From a virus: DNA of 21,950 bases. Both the position numbers and the translations under genes were made by a program. Shown one piece after another: positions 2,186 through 15,606 of the stretch. The stretch covers positions 1 through 21,950 of IMG/VR virus record IMGVR_UViG_3300012923_000015; one strand, written 5' to 3'. Within the stretch, counting starts at the first letter, position 1. Each line of letters starts with the position of its first letter. The notes beneath the pieces were generated by a model. The model saw only the letters and a program-made list of their open reading frames with translations. It was not told where the DNA came from and did no database searches.

Positions 2186-2214
2186 TTGACAAACGCTTCG
2201 CGTTGTGATAGTCT
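2186..2214 (+). promoter_or_regulatory. Sigma-70-type promoter for the rightward block
   Basis: A perfect TTGACA (2186-2191), a 17-bp spacer and TAGTCT (2209-2214) with an extended TGA just before it (TG at 2206-2207). Transcription would start near 2221, just before AGGA and the ATG at 2235. The -10 matches only 3 of 6 consensus positions, but the perfect -35, spacing and extended -10 make this the best promoter in the window. Confidence 0.6.
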
Positions 2215-2234: not shown

Positions 2235-2639
2235 ATGTTAAACCGAAGAGGATTTCTAAAGAGGCTAGCCGCTGTTCCGTTAATACCGTTGGTGGCGAAG
2301 GTCGATTTATTTCAGAAGCATCTTGAGCTGGAAACCGGTTGTGATCTTTCGATGACGGCTCTACAAGAGGCTATTAATGTAGGTGCTAAAAATCAGCTCG
2401 GTCGGCCGACGGTTCTTGTGGTACCACCGGAATTGAGATGGATTGCACGAGAAATTCTTGGAGATCCGCCTCGAAAGAAATACACCGCTGATTCAGAAAT
2501 AAATGTTCTTTGGGATCATATTCTGACTTATAAAGTAGTTTATAGTCGTGAGGAATATCGAAGATATAGACTCCCAGTTTCCCAGTCCTCCTGGAGATTA
2601 TTCTTCGAAAAAGGTTCGGTAGGGAGTGTAGGACCTTGA
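2235..2639 (+). CDS. Tat-signal protein carrying a major-capsid-protein fragment
   Basis: The product is 134 aa, ATG start with AGGA 8 nt upstream. Residues 3-22 look like a twin-arginine signal: NRRGFLKRLAA followed by a hydrophobic stretch VPLIPLV. Residues 37-90 resemble residues 181-240 of the major capsid protein encoded at 10551-11504: DLSMTALQ against DISFTAIQ, VPPELRWIAREILG against IPPELKWIAREVLG, and KYTADSEIN against PYTADNEIN. The remaining C-terminus does not align clearly, although both proteins end in GS-x-GP. Its stop overlaps the TTG start of the small terminase gene. The N-terminal two thirds of the capsid fold are absent, so it cannot be a complete capsid subunit. It could be an exported capsid-derived protein, a duplicated and degenerating gene, or a chance Tat-like N-terminus; the capsid homology itself is clear. 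Confidence 0.7.
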   Translation: MLNRRGFLKRLAAVPLIPLVAKVDLFQKHLELETGCDLSMTALQEAINVGAKNQLGRPTVLVVPPELRWIAREILGDPPRKKYTADSEINVLWDHILTYKVVYSREEYRRYRLPVSQSSWRLFFEKGSVGSVGP

Positions 2640-3250
2640 AAATCCACGTTCCTAATAGCACTTCAGGCGGAGTAAACGCAGTTCTAGAAGCGGAGCTATC
2701 GCCGTTCCCTGATAACAGCCCTGTTAATAATGGACAAGGTAATCATCAAGCAATTGGGGGGCCGGGCCGCCCGGGTGGGGTTTCGTCCGCTCTTCGCCTC
2801 CGCATACAACGGGTCGCCCGTATGCGCGTAGCGGGTATAAAAGATCAAGTTATCCAGCTCCGCGAAGGCATAACACCCCCTGCTTTCCACTATCTCATTA
2901 ATCTCCCTGAATATAAAGAAGTAGAAGAAGCCATCTTCGATGGTACGCTCTCGGCAATGGACCGAGCGATAGCGGGGAATGTAGAGACACTTCGTAATGA
3001 AGTTAGAGGAGCTGTGCCGGCTGCGTTGCGAACTGTTATAGAAGTGGCGAATCAACGCCGTGACTTGAAGACGGCGCTTGCAGCGTCGCTGGAATTACTC
3101 GATAGAGACCCAGACCGCGTCGCGCAAAGGAGCAAGCCCTCCGAACTTGCTGTCGATGCCGTTAGGCTGCCCGATGGGGTAATCGACGTTGTATCGAAGG
3201 AAGCCGATAAAGTCGTAAATGAGATTAATGGATCGAAGAGAGTTCAGTGA
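2636..3250 (+). CDS. terS: Terminase small subunit
   Basis: The product is 204 aa from a TTG overlapping the upstream stop (TTGA), with AGGGAG about 9 nt before. Residues 1-50 are a flexible G/P/N-rich arm containing GGPGRPGG. Residues 55-95 (RLRIQRVARMRVAGIKDQVIQ, then ITPPAFHYLINLPEYKEVEE) fit the helix-turn-helix DNA-recognition domain of phage small terminases. Residues 105-160 (MDRAIAGNVETLRNEV, then AALRTVIEVANQRRDLKTAL and LELLDRDP) match the helical oligomerisation part seen in that family. It would bind the packaging site and load DNA to the large subunit encoded at 4060. The GTG of the next gene overlaps its TGA. Confidence 0.7.
   Translation: MKIHVPNSTSGGVNAVLEAELSPFPDNSPVNNGQGNHQAIGGPGRPGGVSSALRLRIQRVARMRVAGIKDQVIQLREGITPPAFHYLINLPEYKEVEEAIFDGTLSAMDRAIAGNVETLRNEVRGAVPAALRTVIEVANQRRDLKTALAASLELLDRDPDRVAQRSKPSELAVDAVRLPDGVIDVVSKEADKVVNEINGSKRVQ
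2756..2780 (+). other. Potential G-quadruplex motif in the small terminase gene
   Basis: Runs G6, G3, G3 and G4 at 2756-2761, 2764-2766, 2773-2775 and 2777-2780 are separated by loops of 2, 6 and 1 nt, so the sequence fits the canonical G3+N1-7 pattern on the coding strand. It encodes the GGPGRPGG linker. Confidence 0.4.
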
Positions 3251-3480
3251 CAACAGCAGAAACGAATCTAGAGATTGTAGATAGGAGAGAAGGTGATATA
3301 GTACCTGAAGGTCTCTCCGTTACTGGTAGAGTAATTGGCTCTTACAGAATTCATTTAGCATATCAAAAGAGTCTAGAGGACGGGCGAATTCTAAGAGTTA
3401 AATTTGCCATTCCAAGAGAAACAGCAGCAGACTTAACCACGTGGACTTGTTATGAAGTGATTCAAGAATCGACGATTTAG
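3247..3480 (+). CDS. Small hypothetical protein between terminase genes
   Basis: The product is 77 aa. It begins at a GTG that overlaps the stop of the small terminase gene (GTGA), so it is probably translated by coupling; AGAGAG lies upstream. The sequence alternates charged and aliphatic residues (GLSVTGRVIGSYRIHLAYQK, RILRVKFAIPRE), suggesting a small beta-rich fold. No cysteines, signal or membrane segment are seen. No family is recognised. A dyad element (TGTTCAC-TCT-GTGAACA) directly follows the stop codon. Confidence 0.6.
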   Translation: MTTAETNLEIVDRREGDIVPEGLSVTGRVIGSYRIHLAYQKSLEDGRILRVKFAIPRETAADLTTWTCYEVIQESTI

Positions 3481-4059: not shown

Positions 4060-5781
4060 TTGGAAACTTTAGAACAGCTTAATAAAGATTCTAAAGTATT
4101 TGAGTTTGATTCCACCTTCAAGCCACTTCCGATAGTCGGCTTGACTGGTGAGGCTTGGCGCAAAGCGATGCGCCTTAATAGTCTTGGCAGTCTGTACTTT
4201 TTTATCAAGATCACCCTCCGTCGTAGACGCCTCACCGAAGCATTACACAAGCCTTTATGTCAGTCTCTCGAACGTCGGCATATCAAGGACGTTTATGAAA
4301 TCCCACGAGACCACTTCAAATCCACTATCTGCGGCGAAGGTCTTTCAATGTGGCGCGTCCTCTTCTGCTCAGATGAGGATCTTCGAGAGTTTCAAAGACT
4401 TGGTTATCCTCCTGAGTTTATTCGATGGCAACAAGAGATACACCGTCCAGAGGCCCGCAATTTACTGGTCTCTGAGAACATTACCAATGCTGGTAAACTT
4501 GGGAGAAAAATTGACTTTCACTACGAATCCAACCAAGTATATCGTAATATCTTCCCTGAATTAATTCCCACCTCCTCTGAAATATGGTCAAACATCTCCA
4601 AGTGCCACAGGCTGCCGACACAATGTAAGTCACTGGGGGGACATGGGGAAGGCACCTTCGATTTTCTTGGCGTCGGGGGTGCCCTCCAGTCTAGGCACTA
4701 TAATGGGCTCGTAGTTCAAGATGACCTTGTCGGTCGCAAAGCTATTGAATCCCCGTCCATTATGGACAAGGCTATTAAGTGTCATCAGCTCATGGTCGGC
4801 GCTTTTGAAAACGAAGATGCTCTCGAAGACAACGACGAGTTAGTTGTAGGTAACAGATGGGGTTACTACGATCTTAATAGCTGGATAAGAGAGAACGCAC
4901 CCTGGTTCTCCTTTCAAACCCACTCCGCAATGGGTGGGTGCTGTTCTGCACATCCGATAGATACCCCTATATTCCCTGAGGAGTTCTCCGCTGAGAAGCT
5001 CGCTAGGTGGCGTGAGCGTTTAGGCGCGTATCAATTCTCCTGTCAGTTCTTAAATAACCCCGCTTCTCCTGAAAATGCTGCCTTCAAAGAAGCCGACTTG
5101 CGTCATTTCTCTATATTCAAAGGGGAAAATGATGAAGAAATTATTCGACACGAAGTCGTCGATGGCGTTATCGTTAAGGATATTAAAGTATCTCATTTAT
5201 CAGTGTGCATGGTCACTGACCCAAATCATAGCGGAGCTGAGGGACGCTGCCGTCACGCGATCAACGTCGTTGGCCTTTCGTCTGATGGCCGTTATTACCT
5301 GCTTGACTGCTGGGCCGAAGCCTGCGAGTCCGATAAATACATCGCAAAACTCTACGAAATAGCCGCTAAATGGAACATGCGTAAGCTCGGTATTGAGACT
5401 GTTGCTGCGCAAAAGTACCTCGCTTACCATATCAACTATCGTAACAGACTGGAGAATCGTAACCTTCGTCTCATTGAGCTTAAAGGTGAAGTCGATGCCC
5501 CTGACGGTACTATCACTCGAAAGAAAGAATGGAGAATCCGAAACGTACTTTCTCCCATCTTTGAATCTAATAAGTTTTACACTCAGCGTAGGTTTCAAGA
5601 TTTTAAGGGTGAATTCACTTCTTTTCCTCGTGGCAGATTCGTGGACTTACTCGATGCCTTGGCCTACGTCCCGCAGATGCTACGACTACCGCAGTCTTGG
5701 GTAGAAGGTCAGAAGTGGAAGATGCAGAACGCAGCTTGGGCTAGGAAGATAAATCTGCCCTATTCGATAGGAGCCCGTTAA
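4060..5781 (+). CDS. terL: Terminase large subunit
   Basis: The product is 573 aa. The likely start is TTG 4060, with GGAG 4 nt upstream. The N-terminal ATPase has a deviant Walker A IPRDHFKST (about 81-89), Walker B LVVQDD (217-222) and a coupling motif LVVGNRW (261-267). The C-terminal RNase H-like nuclease has acidic residues at VTDPNHSG (D387), LGIETV (E446) and FVDLLDALAYVPQ near the C-terminus. Together these fit the motor that moves DNA into the procapsid through the portal and cuts the concatemer. The length is usual for the family. Its stop overlaps the next start (TAATG), with small terminase upstream and portal downstream as expected. Confidence 0.93.
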   Translation: METLEQLNKDSKVFEFDSTFKPLPIVGLTGEAWRKAMRLNSLGSLYFFIKITLRRRRLTEALHKPLCQSLERRHIKDVYEIPRDHFKSTICGEGLSMWRVLFCSDEDLREFQRLGYPPEFIRWQQEIHRPEARNLLVSENITNAGKLGRKIDFHYESNQVYRNIFPELIPTSSEIWSNISKCHRLPTQCKSLGGHGEGTFDFLGVGGALQSRHYNGLVVQDDLVGRKAIESPSIMDKAIKCHQLMVGAFENEDALEDNDELVVGNRWGYYDLNSWIRENAPWFSFQTHSAMGGCCSAHPIDTPIFPEEFSAEKLARWRERLGAYQFSCQFLNNPASPENAAFKEADLRHFSIFKGENDEEIIRHEVVDGVIVKDIKVSHLSVCMVTDPNHSGAEGRCRHAINVVGLSSDGRYYLLDCWAEACESDKYIAKLYEIAAKWNMRKLGIETVAAQKYLAYHINYRNRLENRNLRLIELKGEVDAPDGTITRKKEWRIRNVLSPIFESNKFYTQRRFQDFKGEFTSFPRGRFVDLLDALAYVPQMLRLPQSWVEGQKWKMQNAAWARKINLPYSIGAR

Positions 5782-6423: not shown

Positions 6424-6594
6424 ATGGATCCTAATGTTGCAGTTATGCTAGGCTTGACTATTCTTGATGAAGTAATCAAATTTATTAAGTCTGTCAAAGG
6501 ACAAGCAGGACTAACTCCTGAGCAGTTGGTTGCTTTGGCAGATGCACAGGATTTGCAAAATAAAGAAGATATTAAAGCTCTACTGGCTCTTTAA
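6424..6594 (+). CDS. Small helical hypothetical protein
   Basis: The product is 56 aa. The ATG at 6424 follows the lipoprotein stop directly, with AAAGGAAAG 7 nt upstream; the TAA overlaps the portal start (TAATG). The sequence MDPNVAVMLGLTILDEVIKF continues with KSVKGQAGLTPEQLVALADA and reads as three short amphipathic helices, with no membrane segment long enough for a second holin. Tight packing on both sides supports a real gene. The function is unknown. Confidence 0.6.
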   Translation: MDPNVAVMLGLTILDEVIKFIKSVKGQAGLTPEQLVALADAQDLQNKEDIKALLAL

Positions 6595-7592
6595 TGGCTG
6601 ATAGAAACTTCATTCCCGTTAAGCTGTCTAACGACGCCGAGTCGAAGCTAAAGGCGCATTTGAAAATGCGTATTCTGGCGCTCGAAGACGGCCTCCGCGA
6701 GCTTCACGAAACCAAGATTGTTAAGTGGCGTAAGGCGTATGAGGCCACGCCTAGGGAGAAAACTCGTGAGTTCCCATTCTATAACGCTTCAAATCTGGTT
6801 GTTCCTATTATTGCTACTTTCAGTGACACCTTACTTGCTCGTGTTATGTCGGCGGTATTAAAGACAAGACCTCCTTGGGTTGCTAAAATTTTTGGTTCTC
6901 ATAAAGATATAGATGACTCCGTTCGAACCGGACTCGAAGAGTTTATGGAATATGTAGGTATCGAACCAACAGAGCTTGATCTTTACCGTGTATACCACGA
7001 ATGGTTTGGTGAAGGTATCAAATACGGCACGTCCGTTCTGAAGTGCCCACATGAAATTCGCTATCGAGACGAACTCGTGGAATCTGAAGGAGATGGTTCT
7101 GGCAGAAAGGAAGTCGCTTTCATGCGCGAAACTGCGTATGAAGGCCCACGTCCTGAGAAGATAGCCTTTGAGCACTTCCTGATTCCTCCTGGCGCAAAGT
7201 CTCTCGAATCTGCTGATATTCGGATTCATAAACGTGTAATGATTAAAAGTGAACTTGAAGAACGACGATTCTTCAAGATTTACGATCCTTTGAAAGTCGA
7301 TTCTATTCTATCTCGCCCCGATCGGACTTCTCCTGCTTATCCGCAGTTGATGAACGAAGAGACCCTCGGAGCCAAGACGACAGGTACCTATGGCTACAAA
7401 GAATGGGATCTCTACGAATGCTGGCTAAACTGGCCTACTCCTGATGGTAAATACAAGCCTGCGATAATCGCCACGTATCATAAGAACTCCGATACTTTAA
7501 TGCGTGCTATCTATGATACGCACACGATACTGCCTTTCGCTTTAGCACGCCTTTTCTACCGCGATGACATGATTTATGGCTACGGCTTCTGA
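6594..7592 (+). CDS. Portal protein, N-terminal part up to an in-frame TGA
   Basis: This 332-codon frame begins at an ATG overlapping the upstream stop and encodes the clip/stem-proximal half of a podovirus-type portal: NASNLVVPIIATFSDTLLAR, later GIKYGTSVLKCP, IAFEHFLIPPGAKSLESADI and a wing-domain ending LARLFYRDDMIYGYGF. It stops at TGA 7590-7592. The frame then continues unbroken as ETMWAFQEEISEQHNQRLDN, which is the usual continuation of portals after the GYGF motif, to 8465. The full frame of 624 codons has the normal portal length. The TGA therefore interrupts a conserved stretch, by sequencing error, mutation, readthrough, or splitting into two chains. The portal identity of the whole frame is well supported by content and position between terminase and scaffold. 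Confidence 0.85.
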   Translation: MADRNFIPVKLSNDAESKLKAHLKMRILALEDGLRELHETKIVKWRKAYEATPREKTREFPFYNASNLVVPIIATFSDTLLARVMSAVLKTRPPWVAKIFGSHKDIDDSVRTGLEEFMEYVGIEPTELDLYRVYHEWFGEGIKYGTSVLKCPHEIRYRDELVESEGDGSGRKEVAFMRETAYEGPRPEKIAFEHFLIPPGAKSLESADIRIHKRVMIKSELEERRFFKIYDPLKVDSILSRPDRTSPAYPQLMNEETLGAKTTGTYGYKEWDLYECWLNWPTPDGKYKPAIIATYHKNSDTLMRAIYDTHTILPFALARLFYRDDMIYGYGF

Positions 7593-7598
7593 GAAACC

Positions 7599-8465
7599 AT
7601 GTGGGCCTTTCAGGAGGAGATATCTGAGCAGCATAATCAACGTCTCGATAATCGTACTATCGCTAACACTCGCGTGTGGCGCGTTTCTCCTGATTCTAAG
7701 CTCCACGCAGGCTATCGCATCTACCCTTCTGCGTGTGTTCCGGCGGAGAAAGACGAAATCGAATCCTTACAAGCTGGAGATATATCACAGCAAACTATCG
7801 ATGATGAAAGATTCTCTCTCGAACTTGCCGAGCGACGAGCTGGAATAAGTCCTCCAATGCAAGGGGCGGGGGCCGGGTCCCAGGGCAAGCGGGGGATTTA
7901 TACCGCCATGGGCACTTTATCCGTAATGCAAGAAGGCAATAGAAGAACTGATCTTAATATATCGGATCTCCGATATGCTCACACCAAACTCGGTAGAATT
8001 CTTCTTGCTGATTATGCTAAGTTCGGTGTTCGTTCTTCTCTTCTTGAGATGTTTGGAGAGAAGGCGTCGAAGATAACGAAAGCCTTGGAGGCTGTGAAAT
8101 CTGCTAGGATTGGACTTCCGATTTACTCATCTACTGCGTCCGTTAACAAAGAAGTTGAGAAGCAGAATCTCTTCTTGTTGGTTAACCTAATGCGTCAGCA
8201 TTATATGGGTATCGCTAACCTGATTAATCAAACATCTAGCATGATGACGCCTCCAGAAGTAAAAGTTTATCTCGCTCAGGTTATCAAAGCCTCTAACATA
8301 GTTATGAAGAATGTCCTTCGTAATTTCGATCAAGAAGACGTAGACCTTCTCGTACCAGAACCGCAGTTAGGAGGTCAAGGTGGCCAACAAACTGGACAAG
8401 CTCCTGGTGCAGGCCCACAAATTCCGGGGATGGCTCCAGGAGGAGGTAGCGGAATGCTTCAATGA
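7599..8465 (+). CDS. Portal protein, C-terminal part after the in-frame TGA
   Basis: Same frame as 6594-7592, separated by TGA GAA ACC. An ATG at 7599 lies 6 nt after the stop, with only a weak GAGA as ribosome site, so re-initiation by coupling is possible. The part starts MWAFQEEISEQHNQRLDN, the long helix that enters the portal stem, then has a glycine-rich loop AGISPPMQGAGAGSQGKRGI typical of portals, a helical crown region, and a G/Q/P-rich tail (GGQGGQQTGQAPGAG). Translated alone it would lack the wing/clip half. It overlaps the next gene by 86 nt. If the TGA is read through, this is residues 336-623 of one portal. Confidence 0.8.
   Translation: MWAFQEEISEQHNQRLDNRTIANTRVWRVSPDSKLHAGYRIYPSACVPAEKDEIESLQAGDISQQTIDDERFSLELAERRAGISPPMQGAGAGSQGKRGIYTAMGTLSVMQEGNRRTDLNISDLRYAHTKLGRILLADYAKFGVRSSLLEMFGEKASKITKALEAVKSARIGLPIYSSTASVNKEVEKQNLFLLVNLMRQHYMGIANLINQTSSMMTPPEVKVYLAQVIKASNIVMKNVLRNFDQEDVDLLVPEPQLGGQGGQQTGQAPGAGPQIPGMAPGGGSGMLQ
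7863..7895 (+). other. Potential G-quadruplex motif in the portal gene
   Basis: Five G runs (7863-7866, 7868-7872, 7875-7877, 7883-7885, 7891-7895) are separated by loops of 1, 2, 5 and 5 nt. This G-rich patch encodes the glycine-rich portal loop and stands out from the AT-richer sequence around it. Confidence 0.4.
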
Positions 8466-10550: not shown

Positions 10551-11504
10551 ATGACAATGGTTAGAGGGCAGTTCTCACAATTACAAGCTCCAGGTCTTCA
10601 CGGTGAATTCGTTCACTGGGTTGATACCTTGCAGCGTGAAGAGGAATTCTCTCACATCCTGCATGTGGAGCCTTCCGATAAGGCCTTCGAGGACGAAGTA
10701 GAGTTCTCAGGTCTTCCACCTATGCCGCTGAAGCCTGAGGCTGAGGCGACGATTTATCAAGATGCGGTGCAGGGTGGCACGAAGAGATATATTAACTTTA
10801 CGTACGCCTTAGGCGTTCGCTCGTCGTTCGAACTGTATGAAGACGATCAATATGGCATTATCATGCAAGTTCCGAAAGCAATCGCTCGAAGCGCTCATTT
10901 CACTAAAGAGCAGAACGCCTGGAATCTCTTTAATCTAGGTTTCACGACTCAGATTACTGCCGATGGCGTTTCGATCTTTAACAACCAACATCCGCTTCTC
11001 GGTGGCACAGCCGCAACTTCGTACGGGCCTGGTTTGGGGAATATCATTAGTGCCGCTGGTACTTATCCTAATCGACCTGCGACGGACGTTGACATTTCGT
11101 TCACGGCCATACAGTTGATGGTGAATATGTTCGAGAGGCTCGTGGATAGCCAAGGCTTGCCGATTTCGATCAAGCCTCGGTATCTGATCATCCCACCTGA
11201 ACTGAAGTGGATTGCGCGTGAGGTCCTTGGGTCTCCGCATAAGCCTTACACTGCTGATAATGAGATTAATGCGTTAATCAAAGAAGACTTGCAGTACTTC
11301 GTATCGCATTATCTCACTTCGGCGTCAGCATGGTTCGCCGTCACTGAGAAAGAAGGACACTGGCTCAAGTTCTTGGTTCGTAAGGAGCTTGATGAAGATT
11401 TCTCGGATGACTTTGATACTTTCAGTATCAAGCAACTCTCCAGGATGCGCTTCGCTTTTGGAGCGACAACATGGATGGGAACCTGGGGAAGTAACGGACC
11501 TTAA
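10551..11504 (+). CDS. Major capsid protein (HK97-type fold)
   Basis: The product is 317 aa, ATG start (a second ATG two codons on) with AAGGAGAA about 12 nt upstream. Features include an N-terminal arm GEFVHWVDTLQREEEF, the E-loop region TKRYINFTYALGVRSSFELY, FNNQHPLLGG, and the A-domain DISFTAIQLMVNMFERLVDS followed by LIIPPELKWIAREVLG and YTADNEIN. The pattern of PPEL-x-W-x-ARE-x-LG with a C-terminal WMGTWGSNGP fits Mu gpT-like HK97-fold capsid proteins. The position after scaffold and decoration genes agrees. Part of its A-domain is duplicated in the ORF at 2235-2639. Confidence 0.82.
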   Translation: MTMVRGQFSQLQAPGLHGEFVHWVDTLQREEEFSHILHVEPSDKAFEDEVEFSGLPPMPLKPEAEATIYQDAVQGGTKRYINFTYALGVRSSFELYEDDQYGIIMQVPKAIARSAHFTKEQNAWNLFNLGFTTQITADGVSIFNNQHPLLGGTAATSYGPGLGNIISAAGTYPNRPATDVDISFTAIQLMVNMFERLVDSQGLPISIKPRYLIIPPELKWIAREVLGSPHKPYTADNEINALIKEDLQYFVSHYLTSASAWFAVTEKEGHWLKFLVRKELDEDFSDDFDTFSIKQLSRMRFAFGATTWMGTWGSNGP

Positions 11505-11822: not shown

Positions 11823-12281
11823 ATGCCTCATGATTATGAAAAGATTCTAGAGCTTCTACCTCGCATTACCCCACAATGGCTAGCCGGGTTTTTTGATGGT
11901 GAAGGTCATGTTTCTATAATGAAAGACTCGAAATCTGGTAACCTTTCAATTCAGCTTGGGATTACTCAGAATGACGAATATCTTCTAGCTCTTATAATGC
12001 TGAAATATAGAGCTGGGAATATATACTCTCATTATAATGGGAATAAGAACGGAAGAATGATTGATTGCTTTGTTTATAGAATTAATGGAAAAGAAATAAA
12101 ACAATTATTAGAAGATATTCTTCCATACTCTGTTGTTAAGAGAGAAAGAATTGAAGTTGCTCTCCGATTTCTTGTTTCTCCCTCGGAAGAACTTCGAGAG
12201 AAAATGCTAGAATTAAATTGTCAAGGAAAATCACCGGCGAGAATAGCCGCCTGGAAAATTAAATCCGGAAGGGAGAACTAA
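11823..12281 (+). CDS. Free-standing LAGLIDADG homing endonuclease
   Basis: The product is 152 aa. Residues 20-32 WLAGFFDGEGHVS are a clear LAGLIDADG motif with the acidic catalytic residue at FDGEG. Only one such motif is present, so the enzyme would act as a homodimer cutting a long asymmetric or pseudo-palindromic site. Typical strands follow (LSIQLGITQND, GRMIDCFVYRING) and a KEIKQLLEDILPYSVVKRERI helix region. The gene is AT-richer than its neighbours, with many AGA, ATA and AAA codons, and sits between structural genes, as expected of an invading selfish element. The last TAA is followed after one base by the TTG of the next gene, so it has been inserted without breaking the neighbours. 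The target is probably at the same place in relatives lacking it. Confidence 0.88.
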   Translation: MPHDYEKILELLPRITPQWLAGFFDGEGHVSIMKDSKSGNLSIQLGITQNDEYLLALIMLKYRAGNIYSHYNGNKNGRMIDCFVYRINGKEIKQLLEDILPYSVVKRERIEVALRFLVSPSEELREKMLELNCQGKSPARIAAWKIKSGREN

Positions 12282-13356: not shown

Positions 13357-13931
13357 ATATATCCTCAAATCCTTGGTCTTTCACCTCCGCTGATGTACCT
13401 GCGGCAGTTGTGGCAGCGGCGTCTCCTAATGGAATGATTCAGCAAGGGACTACTCCTGGACAGCCAGGATTGGCGTCAGTCTTGCTGACGACCGTAGGAG
13501 CACATGGTCTTACTGCTGGGCAGTATATAACCTATATCGCAGATACGAACGGACGATTTCTTGGCTTTTATCAAGTTATCGCCGTTCTATCCGCTACGAC
13601 GGCTTTACTTGCGAATATCTCCGGACCGAAAAGCGGTCAGCCCTTTAGTACTGTCATCGCTGCCTCGGGGGGTGGCTCCGTTTTAGTGTGTCAGTACCCC
13701 TGGATGGTACGTGCAGAGGATATTTCTTTGCAAGGTACTGGAGGAGCCCCTGGTGGTACTACACAAATGATACTCGTGGATAGAAATGGAAATCCCGTTT
13801 GGCGTGTTGATGTTGGTGTAACTGAGACAACGGGGTTTGTTGCTCAGAATAGAGGAAAAATAATGTGGGTGGATGGGATAACATTACAATCCATACCTAC
13901 GAATGTTATCATTTTGGTTACCATTAACTAA
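13353..13931 (+). CDS. Virion structural protein, beta-rich
   Basis: The product is 192 aa. The ATG overlaps the upstream TGA; GAGGAG lies about 13 nt before, so coupling probably drives initiation. The sequence is low in charge and rich in G, T, A and V: VPAAVVAAASPNGMIQQGTT, a repeated strand pattern LLTTVGAHGLTAGQYITYIAD, and a tail NVIILVTIN. This is typical of virion beta-sandwich proteins near the head-tail junction. No more exact role is visible. Confidence 0.6.
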   Translation: MNISSNPWSFTSADVPAAVVAAASPNGMIQQGTTPGQPGLASVLLTTVGAHGLTAGQYITYIADTNGRFLGFYQVIAVLSATTALLANISGPKSGQPFSTVIAASGGGSVLVCQYPWMVRAEDISLQGTGGAPGGTTQMILVDRNGNPVWRVDVGVTETTGFVAQNRGKIMWVDGITLQSIPTNVIILVTIN

Positions 13932-13932
13932 A

Positions 13933-14316
13933 ATGGGCAAAGATCTAGACGAACTAGCAAGTTACATGAAGCCTTTGGCTGAGGAACTTCTCTCTCAGGC
14001 TAGAGCCGCTGGGCTTGATCCTGTAGTCGAAGATACAGGACGGACCTCGGTGGAACAAGAACAGAAACTCGCGCTCGGGGTTTCCTGGACACCTCGTTCT
14101 AAACATCTTCCTCAGCCTCCTGAGATGAAAAGCGAAGCTATTGATGTGGTTCCACGAATATGCATGAGCATGAAATTCTGGGGGTGGAATGGAGATATTG
14201 GTACTAGTCACTCGCATTGGGGTAAACTGATTGAAATAGGCGAAGGACTGGGTCTCCATTGTGGGGTTCATTTCCCGGTTTCTGACCCCGGACACTTTCA
14301 GTATGTTCACAAGTAG
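13933..14316 (+). CDS. Endolysin, M15-type D,D- or L,D-carboxypeptidase/endopeptidase
   Basis: The product is 127 aa from ATG 13933, right after the upstream stop; an in-frame ATG at 13903 is also possible but would overlap and lacks a ribosome site. The family pattern is visible: TGRTSVEQEQKLALG (substrate arm), SKHL...SEAIDVVP giving zinc ligands H58 and D71, and DPGHFQYV with H121 as third ligand. Peptidase M15 enzymes cut peptide cross-links of cell-wall peptidoglycan, and phages use them as endolysins. A 6-residue insertion is seen between SKHL and SEAID compared with the usual SxHxxGxAxD. There is no signal peptide, so export would depend on a holin such as the candidate at 5781. Confidence 0.78.
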   Translation: MGKDLDELASYMKPLAEELLSQARAAGLDPVVEDTGRTSVEQEQKLALGVSWTPRSKHLPQPPEMKSEAIDVVPRICMSMKFWGWNGDIGTSHSHWGKLIEIGEGLGLHCGVHFPVSDPGHFQYVHK

Positions 14317-14322
14317 CTTGAT

Positions 14323-15606
14323 ATGGATAAGAATATGGGATTCTTGATAGTCTCGGAAGGGGGAGATGGATTGGGGCTGGCGCTCCGGCTTCAGGAAGAA
14401 GGTCATAAAGTAAGTATGGCTATCAAGGATCCCATAGCCGAACAAAGAGGAGAAGGATTAATTGAGAAGAGCGCATCTCCGGAATTCAAGCCTGTTCTTC
14501 TTGCAGACTGTACTGGAAGCGGTGCTCTACTAGATTCTTATCGCGCGAGCGGCGGAGATACTTTTGGAGGTTCTCAGATTGCTGATAGACTAGAAAGCGG
14601 CCGTAAATACGCTAGTCAAATTTTCAAGGAAGCAGAAATTCAAGAGCCTTTCTCGAAGAGATTCACGGACTGGGAATCTGCTTTTGAGTTTGTTCAGTCC
14701 TGGGATGAAGATTCCAAACTCGTTTTTAAGCCCGAGGGTAAACACAGCGGTGTAGTACCTAGCTTCGTACCGCATGATAACGCGGAATTGCTAGAAATGC
14801 TAGAGCACTACAAAGGAATAATCGGCAATGAACCAGAATTTACACTACAAGAATTCATTGACGGCGCATGTATCTCAAGTGAGGTCTGGTGCGCACAAGG
14901 TAAAATGCTCCGTCCAATCAATCACACTCTCGAACGTAAGCAACTCCTCCCTGGGGACATTGGTCCCTCGGGAGGGTGTACAGGTAATGTGGTGTGGTGC
15001 TGTGACGATCGGGAGTGTAGGCTTTGTGAAACACTTGCAAAGCTGTCAGGAATGCTCGAAGAGAATCAATGGACCGGGCCAATAGATATCAACACCGTTG
15101 TCTCCAAGGAAGGAGAAATCTATGCGCTCGAATTTACACCTCGACTGGGCTATGATGCATTCCCGACATTTCTGTATGGGCTTTTTGAATCTGATTTCGG
15201 ACAGTTCGTGTATAACTCTTGCCATGGAGAGTCCAGTGATCTCGAAGTCTCAGATGGCTTCGCTGCGGGTGTTAGGATTTCCGTTCCGCCGTGGCCCAGC
15301 GAGGACTTTCATGCCCGTCCAGGGCTCCCAATTCGTGGACTTCGCAAATCTGACCTCGAAAAATTCTATTCTTACGAGATTAGTTTACAAGAAGATTCGC
15401 TTGTCACCTCCGGAGGGTACGGTATTATAGGTGTAGCCATTGGGCATGGGGGTTCTATAGAAGAAGCCTTTGAAGAGGCTTATAAAATCTGCGATAAGCT
15501 ACGCTTGCCAGATAAACAGTACCGAAATGATCTCGCGGAGGTGTTTGCGAAGGAGTATCGCCTAGTAGAACGCAGTTTATTTAGTGTTCAGAAAGTGAAC
15601 GCTTAA
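14323..15606 (+). CDS. PurD-like ATP-grasp ligase in the tail module
   Basis: The product is 427 aa. The start at ATG 14323 is tentative, with ATG 14335 also possible (GFLIVSEGGDGLGLALRL is the natural N-terminal strand and loop of this family). The ATP-grasp core follows: LVFKPEGKHSG (K136), LQEFIDGACISSEVW (E177, E187), KQLLPGDIGPSGG (206-218) and IYALEFTPRLGYD (E270). This order matches phosphoribosylamine-glycine ligase, but the metal-binding motif normally reads E-x-N-x-R and here reads E-F-T-P-R, so the Asn is replaced. ATP-grasp enzymes join a carboxylate to an amine using ATP. No other purine gene is near, and it lies between an endolysin and tail genes, so a role in modifying a virion protein or cell-wall peptide is as likely as purine synthesis. 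Confidence 0.75.
   Translation: MDKNMGFLIVSEGGDGLGLALRLQEEGHKVSMAIKDPIAEQRGEGLIEKSASPEFKPVLLADCTGSGALLDSYRASGGDTFGGSQIADRLESGRKYASQIFKEAEIQEPFSKRFTDWESAFEFVQSWDEDSKLVFKPEGKHSGVVPSFVPHDNAELLEMLEHYKGIIGNEPEFTLQEFIDGACISSEVWCAQGKMLRPINHTLERKQLLPGDIGPSGGCTGNVVWCCDDRECRLCETLAKLSGMLEENQWTGPIDINTVVSKEGEIYALEFTPRLGYDAFPTFLYGLFESDFGQFVYNSCHGESSDLEVSDGFAAGVRISVPPWPSEDFHARPGLPIRGLRKSDLEKFYSYEISLQEDSLVTSGGYGIIGVAIGHGGSIEEAFEEAYKICDKLRLPDKQYRNDLAEVFAKEYRLVERSLFSVQKVNA
15580..15600 (+). repeat. Dispersed dyad element, copy 3
   Basis: TTTAGTGTTCA-GAAAG-TGAAC lies in the last codons of the ATP-grasp gene and ends 9 nt before the ATG at 15610. The next gene has no clear Shine-Dalgarno, and this copy overlaps where one would be expected. 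It matches copies at 2124, 3476 and 19497. Confidence 0.45.

Follow-up and report, generated by a model that had tools for sequence, protein, structure and literature searches.

The described proteins closest to the one reported here are the major capsid proteins (MCPs) of the Mu gpT-like/Phage_capsid_4 type (PF10124, PF25209), with which it shares the A-domain, the predicted fold and a similar C-terminal end. Unlike these MCPs, it lacks the N-arm, the E-loop and most of the P-domain, so that by the standard anatomy of the HK97 fold it cannot build a shell, and it carries a leader of the twin-arginine translocation (Tat) type. Encapsulins, the HK97-fold relatives found in cells, were prominent among its fold matches, but they are full shell-forming proteins rather than single domains and have no Tat leader. 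Tat substrates, as described by the models TIGR01409 and PF10518, are alike in the RRxFLK-type motif, in a moderately hydrophobic core and, for most members, in a basic residue, whereas the family described here falls below the model cut-offs, has a short core and shows no conserved AxA. Capsid-directed proteins are also known from satellites, such as Sid of P4 and CpmB of SaPI; these, together with TcaP of PLE, are to our knowledge scaffold-like, are not cut from a shell protein and bear no export leader. Like the protein reported here, these satellite proteins (for TcaP, PMC10945586) are small and accessory; they act on phage shells, and a parallel in effect is possible. Phage morons, including the membrane proteins of superinfection exclusion, are likewise dispensable single genes scattered between conserved genes, but the accessory gene appears to differ from them in having no evident promoter or terminator of its own, and it is translationally coupled. 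We know of no moron with capsid-derived content.

The accessory gene was found in a stretch of viral DNA of 21,950 nucleotides (the window; IMG/VR record IMGVR_UViG_3300012923_000015), in which positions 2235-2639 of the plus strand form an intact open reading frame (ORF) of 134 residues with an ATG start and a TGA stop. The predicted protein consists of a Tat-type leader (residues 1-26; 2235-2312, plus strand) and a free-standing capsid A-domain (residues 28-134; 2316-2636, plus strand), and we hold this anatomy, a capsid A-domain behind a Tat-type leader, with high confidence. The leader (NRRGFLKRLAAVPLIPLVAK, divided as MLN-RR-GFLKR-LAAVPLIPLVA-K; residues 1-26 being MLNRRGFLKRLAAVPLIPLVAKVDLF) comprises a twin-arginine motif with the arginines at residues 4-5, an uncharged core of 11 residues and then a lysine. 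In all eight lineages of the family described below, RRx[F/L] lies at residues 3-7, with the arginine pair at residues 3-5 and Phe or Leu two residues on, while starts of the form RRx[F/L][L/F/I/V] were found in about 0.4% of the ORFs of at least 80 amino acids in the same contigs, the family itself being counted in. The uncharged core is short across the family (11-16 residues) and is followed by a basic residue in most members.

The NCBI Tat model TIGR01409 matched residues 2-14 of the window protein with 14.6 bits, below its cut-off of 16.7, the scores with the Pfam model TAT_signal (PF10518) were also under the curated cut-off, and matches to the two models were seen for some family members only. 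The TIGR01409 cut-off also misses a protein of contig L027 with the Tat-like start TRRDF (10.3 bits), and an exported-looking protein of a related phage group (contig L105) scored 16.4 bits with PF10518 against a cut-off of 22.7. The charge that serves in Sec avoidance is not universal in Tat signals (PMC6085387). No AxA signal peptidase site was present in the window protein, nor was one conserved across the family. Since uncleaved Tat anchors exist, this absence bears on the fate of the protein and not on its targeting. On balance, genuine Tat targeting of the family's leader appears likely: the invariant arginine pair, the Phe or Leu at +2, the moderately hydrophobic core and the basic residue after it speak in favor, and the sub-cut-off profile scores, the short core and the lack of a conserved AxA speak against. 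The protein is not counted here among established Tat substrates. Folded proteins are the cargo of the Tat system (PMC6085387), which suits a self-contained domain.

Two other interpretations of the N-terminal region were set aside. Inspection of the alignment ruled out a lipobox at the conserved Cys: its key positions are occupied in most members by Pro, Glu or Asp, and this Cys lies far from the core. Origin of the leader as the capsid's own N-terminus, by internal deletion, found no support: shuffled sequences equalled the score in 2.6-90% of trials, and in contig L040 a leader and a capsid N-arm occur side by side. Proteins of about 200 amino acids with Tat-like starts and a lipobox-like Cys were observed at L105 2419-3048 (SRRTFIKG) and L027 3268-3870 (TRRDFGKY), and these are possible Tat-routed phage lipoproteins.

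The MCP of the window, of the HK97 type and Mu gpT-like, is encoded at 10551-11504 of the plus strand (PF10124, 2.2e-10; PF25209, 7.9e-10; phrog_371, 6.5e-13). In a single BLASTP comparison, accessory residues 34-103 aligned with MCP residues 178-253 (11082-11309, plus strand) with 34 of 77 positions identical (44%; E=4e-16). Both elements noticed in a sequence-only reading of this DNA, namely the Tat-type start and the homology to a capsid fragment, were confirmed. The A-domain part scored 155 against a panel of MCPs, compared to a maximum of 60 in 300 shuffles, and the alignment is thus far better than chance. The MCP family profile detected the accessory protein at 3.5e-13, while its Pfam capsid match was sub-threshold (14 bits, with a gathering score of 27). 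The same reading had taken the domain for a fragment of the phage's own capsid; it is indeed a capsid A-domain, but the closest capsid is not the MCP of this phage, since MCPs of other phages match slightly better.

The A-domain is predicted to consist of a helix (40-52), a strand (58-63), a second helix (65-75) and three strands (98-101, 120-124, and 127-131); it carries an invariant Cys36 and ends in GSVGSVGP, which resembles the C-terminal GTWGSNGP of the MCP (residues 310-317; 11478-11501, plus strand). Compared to a shell-forming MCP, the alignment begins only at about MCP residue 178 and skips approximately 40 residues before the C-terminus. In HK97-type proteins the C-terminal strand is part of the A-domain, so that loss of these residues and of a 7-residue loop probably closed up the domain and separated it cleanly from the rest of the shell protein. 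For the accessory protein, the AlphaFold2 model had an overall pLDDT of 77 and a pTM of 0.68, with ten-residue blocks at 86-94 for most of residues 31-70 and 101-134 and lower values (55-77) for residues 71-100; the model of the whole capsid protein (pLDDT 31) was left out of the analysis. Foldseek with the accessory model gave no match at E<=0.001. After re-alignment of the 1000 best Foldseek chains with VIA-align, HK97-fold capsid proteins or encapsulins filled nearly all of the first 50 places; Z reached 7.4, most of these alignments spanned 75-97 residues, and many extended to the C-terminus of the target. The model thus places the domain within the HK97 A-domain fold; a Z below 8 would be weak on its own and Foldseek by itself was not significant, and it is the sequence homology that makes this assignment firm. 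Thioredoxin-like Foldseek matches were judged to reflect a common arrangement and were set aside.

Searches with the accessory protein alone recovered only near-identical copies from other samples (L002-L004). Contigs were fetched with capsid and terminase queries (at most 80 in each scan), followed by iteration with family profiles, and these viral contigs yielded at least eight divergent lineages in which a Tat-type leader is likewise joined to an A-domain (window/L003, L044, L151, L124, L145, L189, L190, and L185/L192). Identity within the domain was 29-56% for most pairs of lineages and 72% between L189 and L190. An alignment of the eight Tat proteins with 14 capsids revealed positions kept in all eight lineages (window numbering: Leu11, Pro15, Cys36-Asp-Leu-Ser, Gly56, Pro58, Leu61, Trp120, Phe124, Gly127, and Ser131), among which Cys36 and Phe124 are absent from the capsids. 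All eight Tat proteins also share a 7-residue deletion that lies after the first helix and before the strand that follows it, and some 40 residues have been lost from the stretch separating the Trp-containing strand from the C-terminus. A capsid-like end, SxGP or SxGL (compare GSNGP in the capsid), is retained by seven of the eight lineages, and in those seven the tail match was rare among shuffled tails (fraction 0.0065 or less). The domain of L145 scored 39 against capsids with a shuffle maximum of 58, and is not separable from chance by this direct comparison; it belongs to the family through the family profile only.

The ORF is open and the Tat start is retained in all eight lineages, so that the arrangement which the sequence-only reading proposed to look for in related phages was found intact. 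The window copy differs from those of L003 and L004 by 9 synonymous and 2 nonsynonymous changes (dN/dS 0.067, on small numbers), indicating that selection on the accessory gene is purifying. All carriers are uncultured viral contigs, presumably from soil, to judge by the type of collection. An MCP-family capsid was found in seven of the 10 carrier records, the other three being fragments of 4-17 kb, and thus every carrier record in which any capsid gene was found (7/7) has this Mu gpT-like family. No relative was detected in 50,697 phage records (INPHARED), 72,556 plasmid records (PLSDB) or the GTDB genome contigs searched; in INPHARED phages whose capsids resemble that of the window, no ORF combined a Tat start with a capsid segment, no PHROGs family matched the accessory protein, and literature searches returned no protein of the capsid-domain plus Tat-leader type. 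On the basis of these absences, the family has no description in the databases and papers searched, and what is new is its architecture and not a function.

Phylogenetic analysis placed the Tat proteins on one side of a branch against all capsids (support 100/99). Their identity to the capsids of their own phages was 22-45%, and these were not their nearest relatives; a recent duplication from the own capsid gene was thus ruled out by alignment and tree, and the attribution to the phage's own capsid names the right type of protein but the wrong line of descent. The branch support, the shared deletion and the invariant Cys point to a single origin, and most likely the Tat plus A-domain arrangement was made once and then spread. 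By these comparisons, the accessory protein is identified as one ancient, horizontally scattered paralogue of capsid proteins.

Genomic context analyses revealed where the gene is inserted. In the window, it lies behind a promoter-like element (TTGACA-17 nt-TAGTCT; 2186-2214, plus strand) and ahead of a terminase small subunit (TerS)-like gene (2636-3250, plus strand), which has TerS-like homologues in all relatives and whose TTG start overlaps the accessory TGA stop. The terminase large subunit (TerL) gene, the neighbor used for the phage tree, follows at 4060-5781 of the plus strand (phrog_38, E=8.8e-53). The accessory gene had been described as the first gene after the best promoter, and this is plausible because a like element with the same spacing stands upstream of TerS in L009, L071, and L102; the element itself was under the threshold of the promoter consensus scan, which did not report it. 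In L009 and L071, the TerL of which is, respectively, 99 and 96% identical to that of the window, the site is empty and TerS begins with ATG directly at the promoter-like element. The junction reads GGGTGTATGAAAATCCACG in L009, with one base different in L071, compared to GGGTGTATG-[gene]-TTGAAAATCCACG in the window. These junctions indicate that the accessory gene displaced TerS from its start site and probably relies on the promoter-like element found ahead of TerS in relatives, while TerS now starts at the TTG overlapping the accessory stop. L102 has an unrelated small gene in the same slot. The slot between the promoter-like element and TerS is interchangeable and contains a Tat/A-domain gene, an unrelated gene of about 90 amino acids, or nothing (one-gene slot at window 2235-2636, L102 2143-2418, and L010 1459-1731).

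Empty sites were found in L009, L071, L125, L045, and L146. Comparison of L124 with L125, L145 with L045, and L040 with L146 showed insertion downstream of TerS, fitted at TAATG or similar stop/start overlaps, while the member in L151 lies just 3' of TerL and those in L185 and L189 follow a small upstream gene, with 4-base overlaps. When the gene was mapped onto a tree of TerL from 64 phages, its seven occurrences (six of the A-domain and one of the N-arm type) required seven changes; it is missing from the closest sister phages, several of which have a nearly identical TerL. As with phage morons, the gene is present or absent between near-identical phages and cleanly inserted between genes. 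Taken together, the sequences compared show the accessory gene to be a mobile single-gene cassette, fitted into start/stop junctions in the vicinity of the terminase genes.

The single N-arm case was found in L040, where an 80-residue ORF between TerS and the following gene starts with KRRSFLKSIGLGLAGAA, a Tat-like leader, and ends in a segment homologous to the capsid N-arm (VRGSFAELMAPGIRKVF...). This ORF scored 81 against capsids (shuffle maximum 51; 66 with the capsid of its own phage), and its best matches among 10,075 ORFs were all capsids. By homology, a Tat-like leader is here joined to another part of this shell protein, in the same kind of slot.

Further genes were observed in the same regions. 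A second accessory ORF of 77 amino acids, with no family match, lies right after TerS (window 3247-3480) and is present in L003 and L102 and absent from L009 and L071. HNH or LAGLIDADG-type genes occur between TerS and TerL in L044 and L040, a LAGLIDADG homing endonuclease is encoded downstream of the capsid gene of the window (11823-12281), and the 913-aa TerL ORFs of L185 (2456-5197) and L192 (2659-5400) contain an internal LAGLIDADG-like domain that is probably an intein. The portal gene of the window (6594-8465) has an in-frame TGA at 7590-7592, where the loci of seven relatives read Cys, and this TGA is thus attributed to a nonsense change or to an assembly error in the record. In the structural region, a PurD-like ATP-grasp protein (14323-15606; TIGR00877, E=2.2e-22, far below the curated cut-off) is a possible auxiliary enzyme. 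A protein with a weak match to M15 peptidases of the D-Ala-D-Ala carboxypeptidase type (window 13903-14316; E=0.0046, below the gathering score) is possibly the lysis enzyme.

Regarding function, in the reading that we favor the leader would deliver the domain, already folded, through the Tat pathway to the inner membrane or the periplasm, and the domain would probably stay tethered at the membrane, since no cleavage site is conserved. In the weakest step of the proposal, the domain would act as a capsid mimic in conflict by binding something that recognizes this part of the capsid, most likely a host sensor of capsid protein or the capsid subunits of a rival, and the bound target would be put out of action by being carried to the membrane. 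Even with the other steps granted, such a conflict role is tentative, as is the function in decoy, immunity or exclusion suggested in the sequence-only reading, and the whole chain, from the anatomy through Tat targeting to a capsid mimic in conflict with host defenses or rival phages, is rather unlikely to hold in every link. A route by which partners of Tat substrates are exported as hitchhikers is said to have been described by Rodrigue et al. in 1999. A more specific version, in which the A-domain (in L040, the N-arm) would be a Tat-tagged bait and a bound sensor or rival subunit would hitchhike to or through the Tat translocase as a counter-defense, is given a distinctly small chance. Capsid proteins trigger several bacterial defenses, among them Lit, CapRel, and PifA (PMC10286901). 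The main difficulty for a decoy is that export removes the protein from the cytoplasm, where both the sensors and the assembling capsids are located, so that capture would have to precede export, or co-export would be needed. In addition, the gene lies in an apparent late operon, and a capsid mimic might disturb the assembly of the phage's own shells.

A rival reading is that the A-domain was exapted for its small, stable fold and now serves some other purpose in the envelope, such as binding a periplasmic or membrane partner, timing lysis or blocking the DNA entry of a second phage, in which case the capsid ancestry would say nothing of the target. We regard this as a real, though minority, possibility: a protein placed outside the cytoplasm by the Tat route, the distance of the Tat proteins from the capsids of their own phages and the family's own Cys36 and Phe124 would all agree with it, but the shared capsid family of the carriers and the capsid N-arm behind a Tat-like leader in L040 suggest that capsid ancestry matters. 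That two different capsid pieces are used would also agree with interference in assembly, whereby a membrane-held, dominant-negative capsid fragment poisons the shells of rivals with related capsids, comparable in effect to the satellite proteins that remodel or inhibit helper capsids. The accessory, mobile distribution would fit this as well, and divergence from the own capsid would spare self; nevertheless, the fragment would be made alongside the phage's own capsid protein, its leader would carry it away from where shells are assembled, and the capsid-remodeling satellite proteins known to us are scaffolds or decorations and not shell-domain fragments (for TcaP, PMC10945586). Interference is considered unlikely.

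Little credence is given to a part in the virion or at the assembly site, in which a membrane-tethered A-domain would nucleate capsomers at the inner membrane or enter the head: the fold and the capsid-like C-terminal end are kept and the gene lies among head and packaging genes, but it is dispensable, being absent from phages with approximately 99% identical TerL, and Tat topology would put the domain outside the cytoplasm. The dull alternative raised in the sequence-only reading, a degenerate duplicate, here taken as a functionless copy of the capsid gene whose RR start arose by chance, could account for the short length and the scattered distribution; it is at odds with the low dN/dS between close copies, with the open frames and invariant RR of eight divergent lineages and with the clean start/stop coupling of each insertion into an operon, and these make a decaying duplicate very unlikely, with a nearly negligible share of the probability. 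What is left over from the readings listed belongs to roles not thought of.

Among described phage proteins, none was found in which one capsid domain is directed to the membrane. If export is real, either capsid surfaces act outside the cytoplasm or capsid-binding proteins get removed. Because several bacterial defenses are triggered by capsid proteins (PMC10286901), a conserved and mobile capsid mimic would offer a handle on how phages answer them. The accessory protein would, in addition, provide an instance from nature of a shell domain that folds alone.
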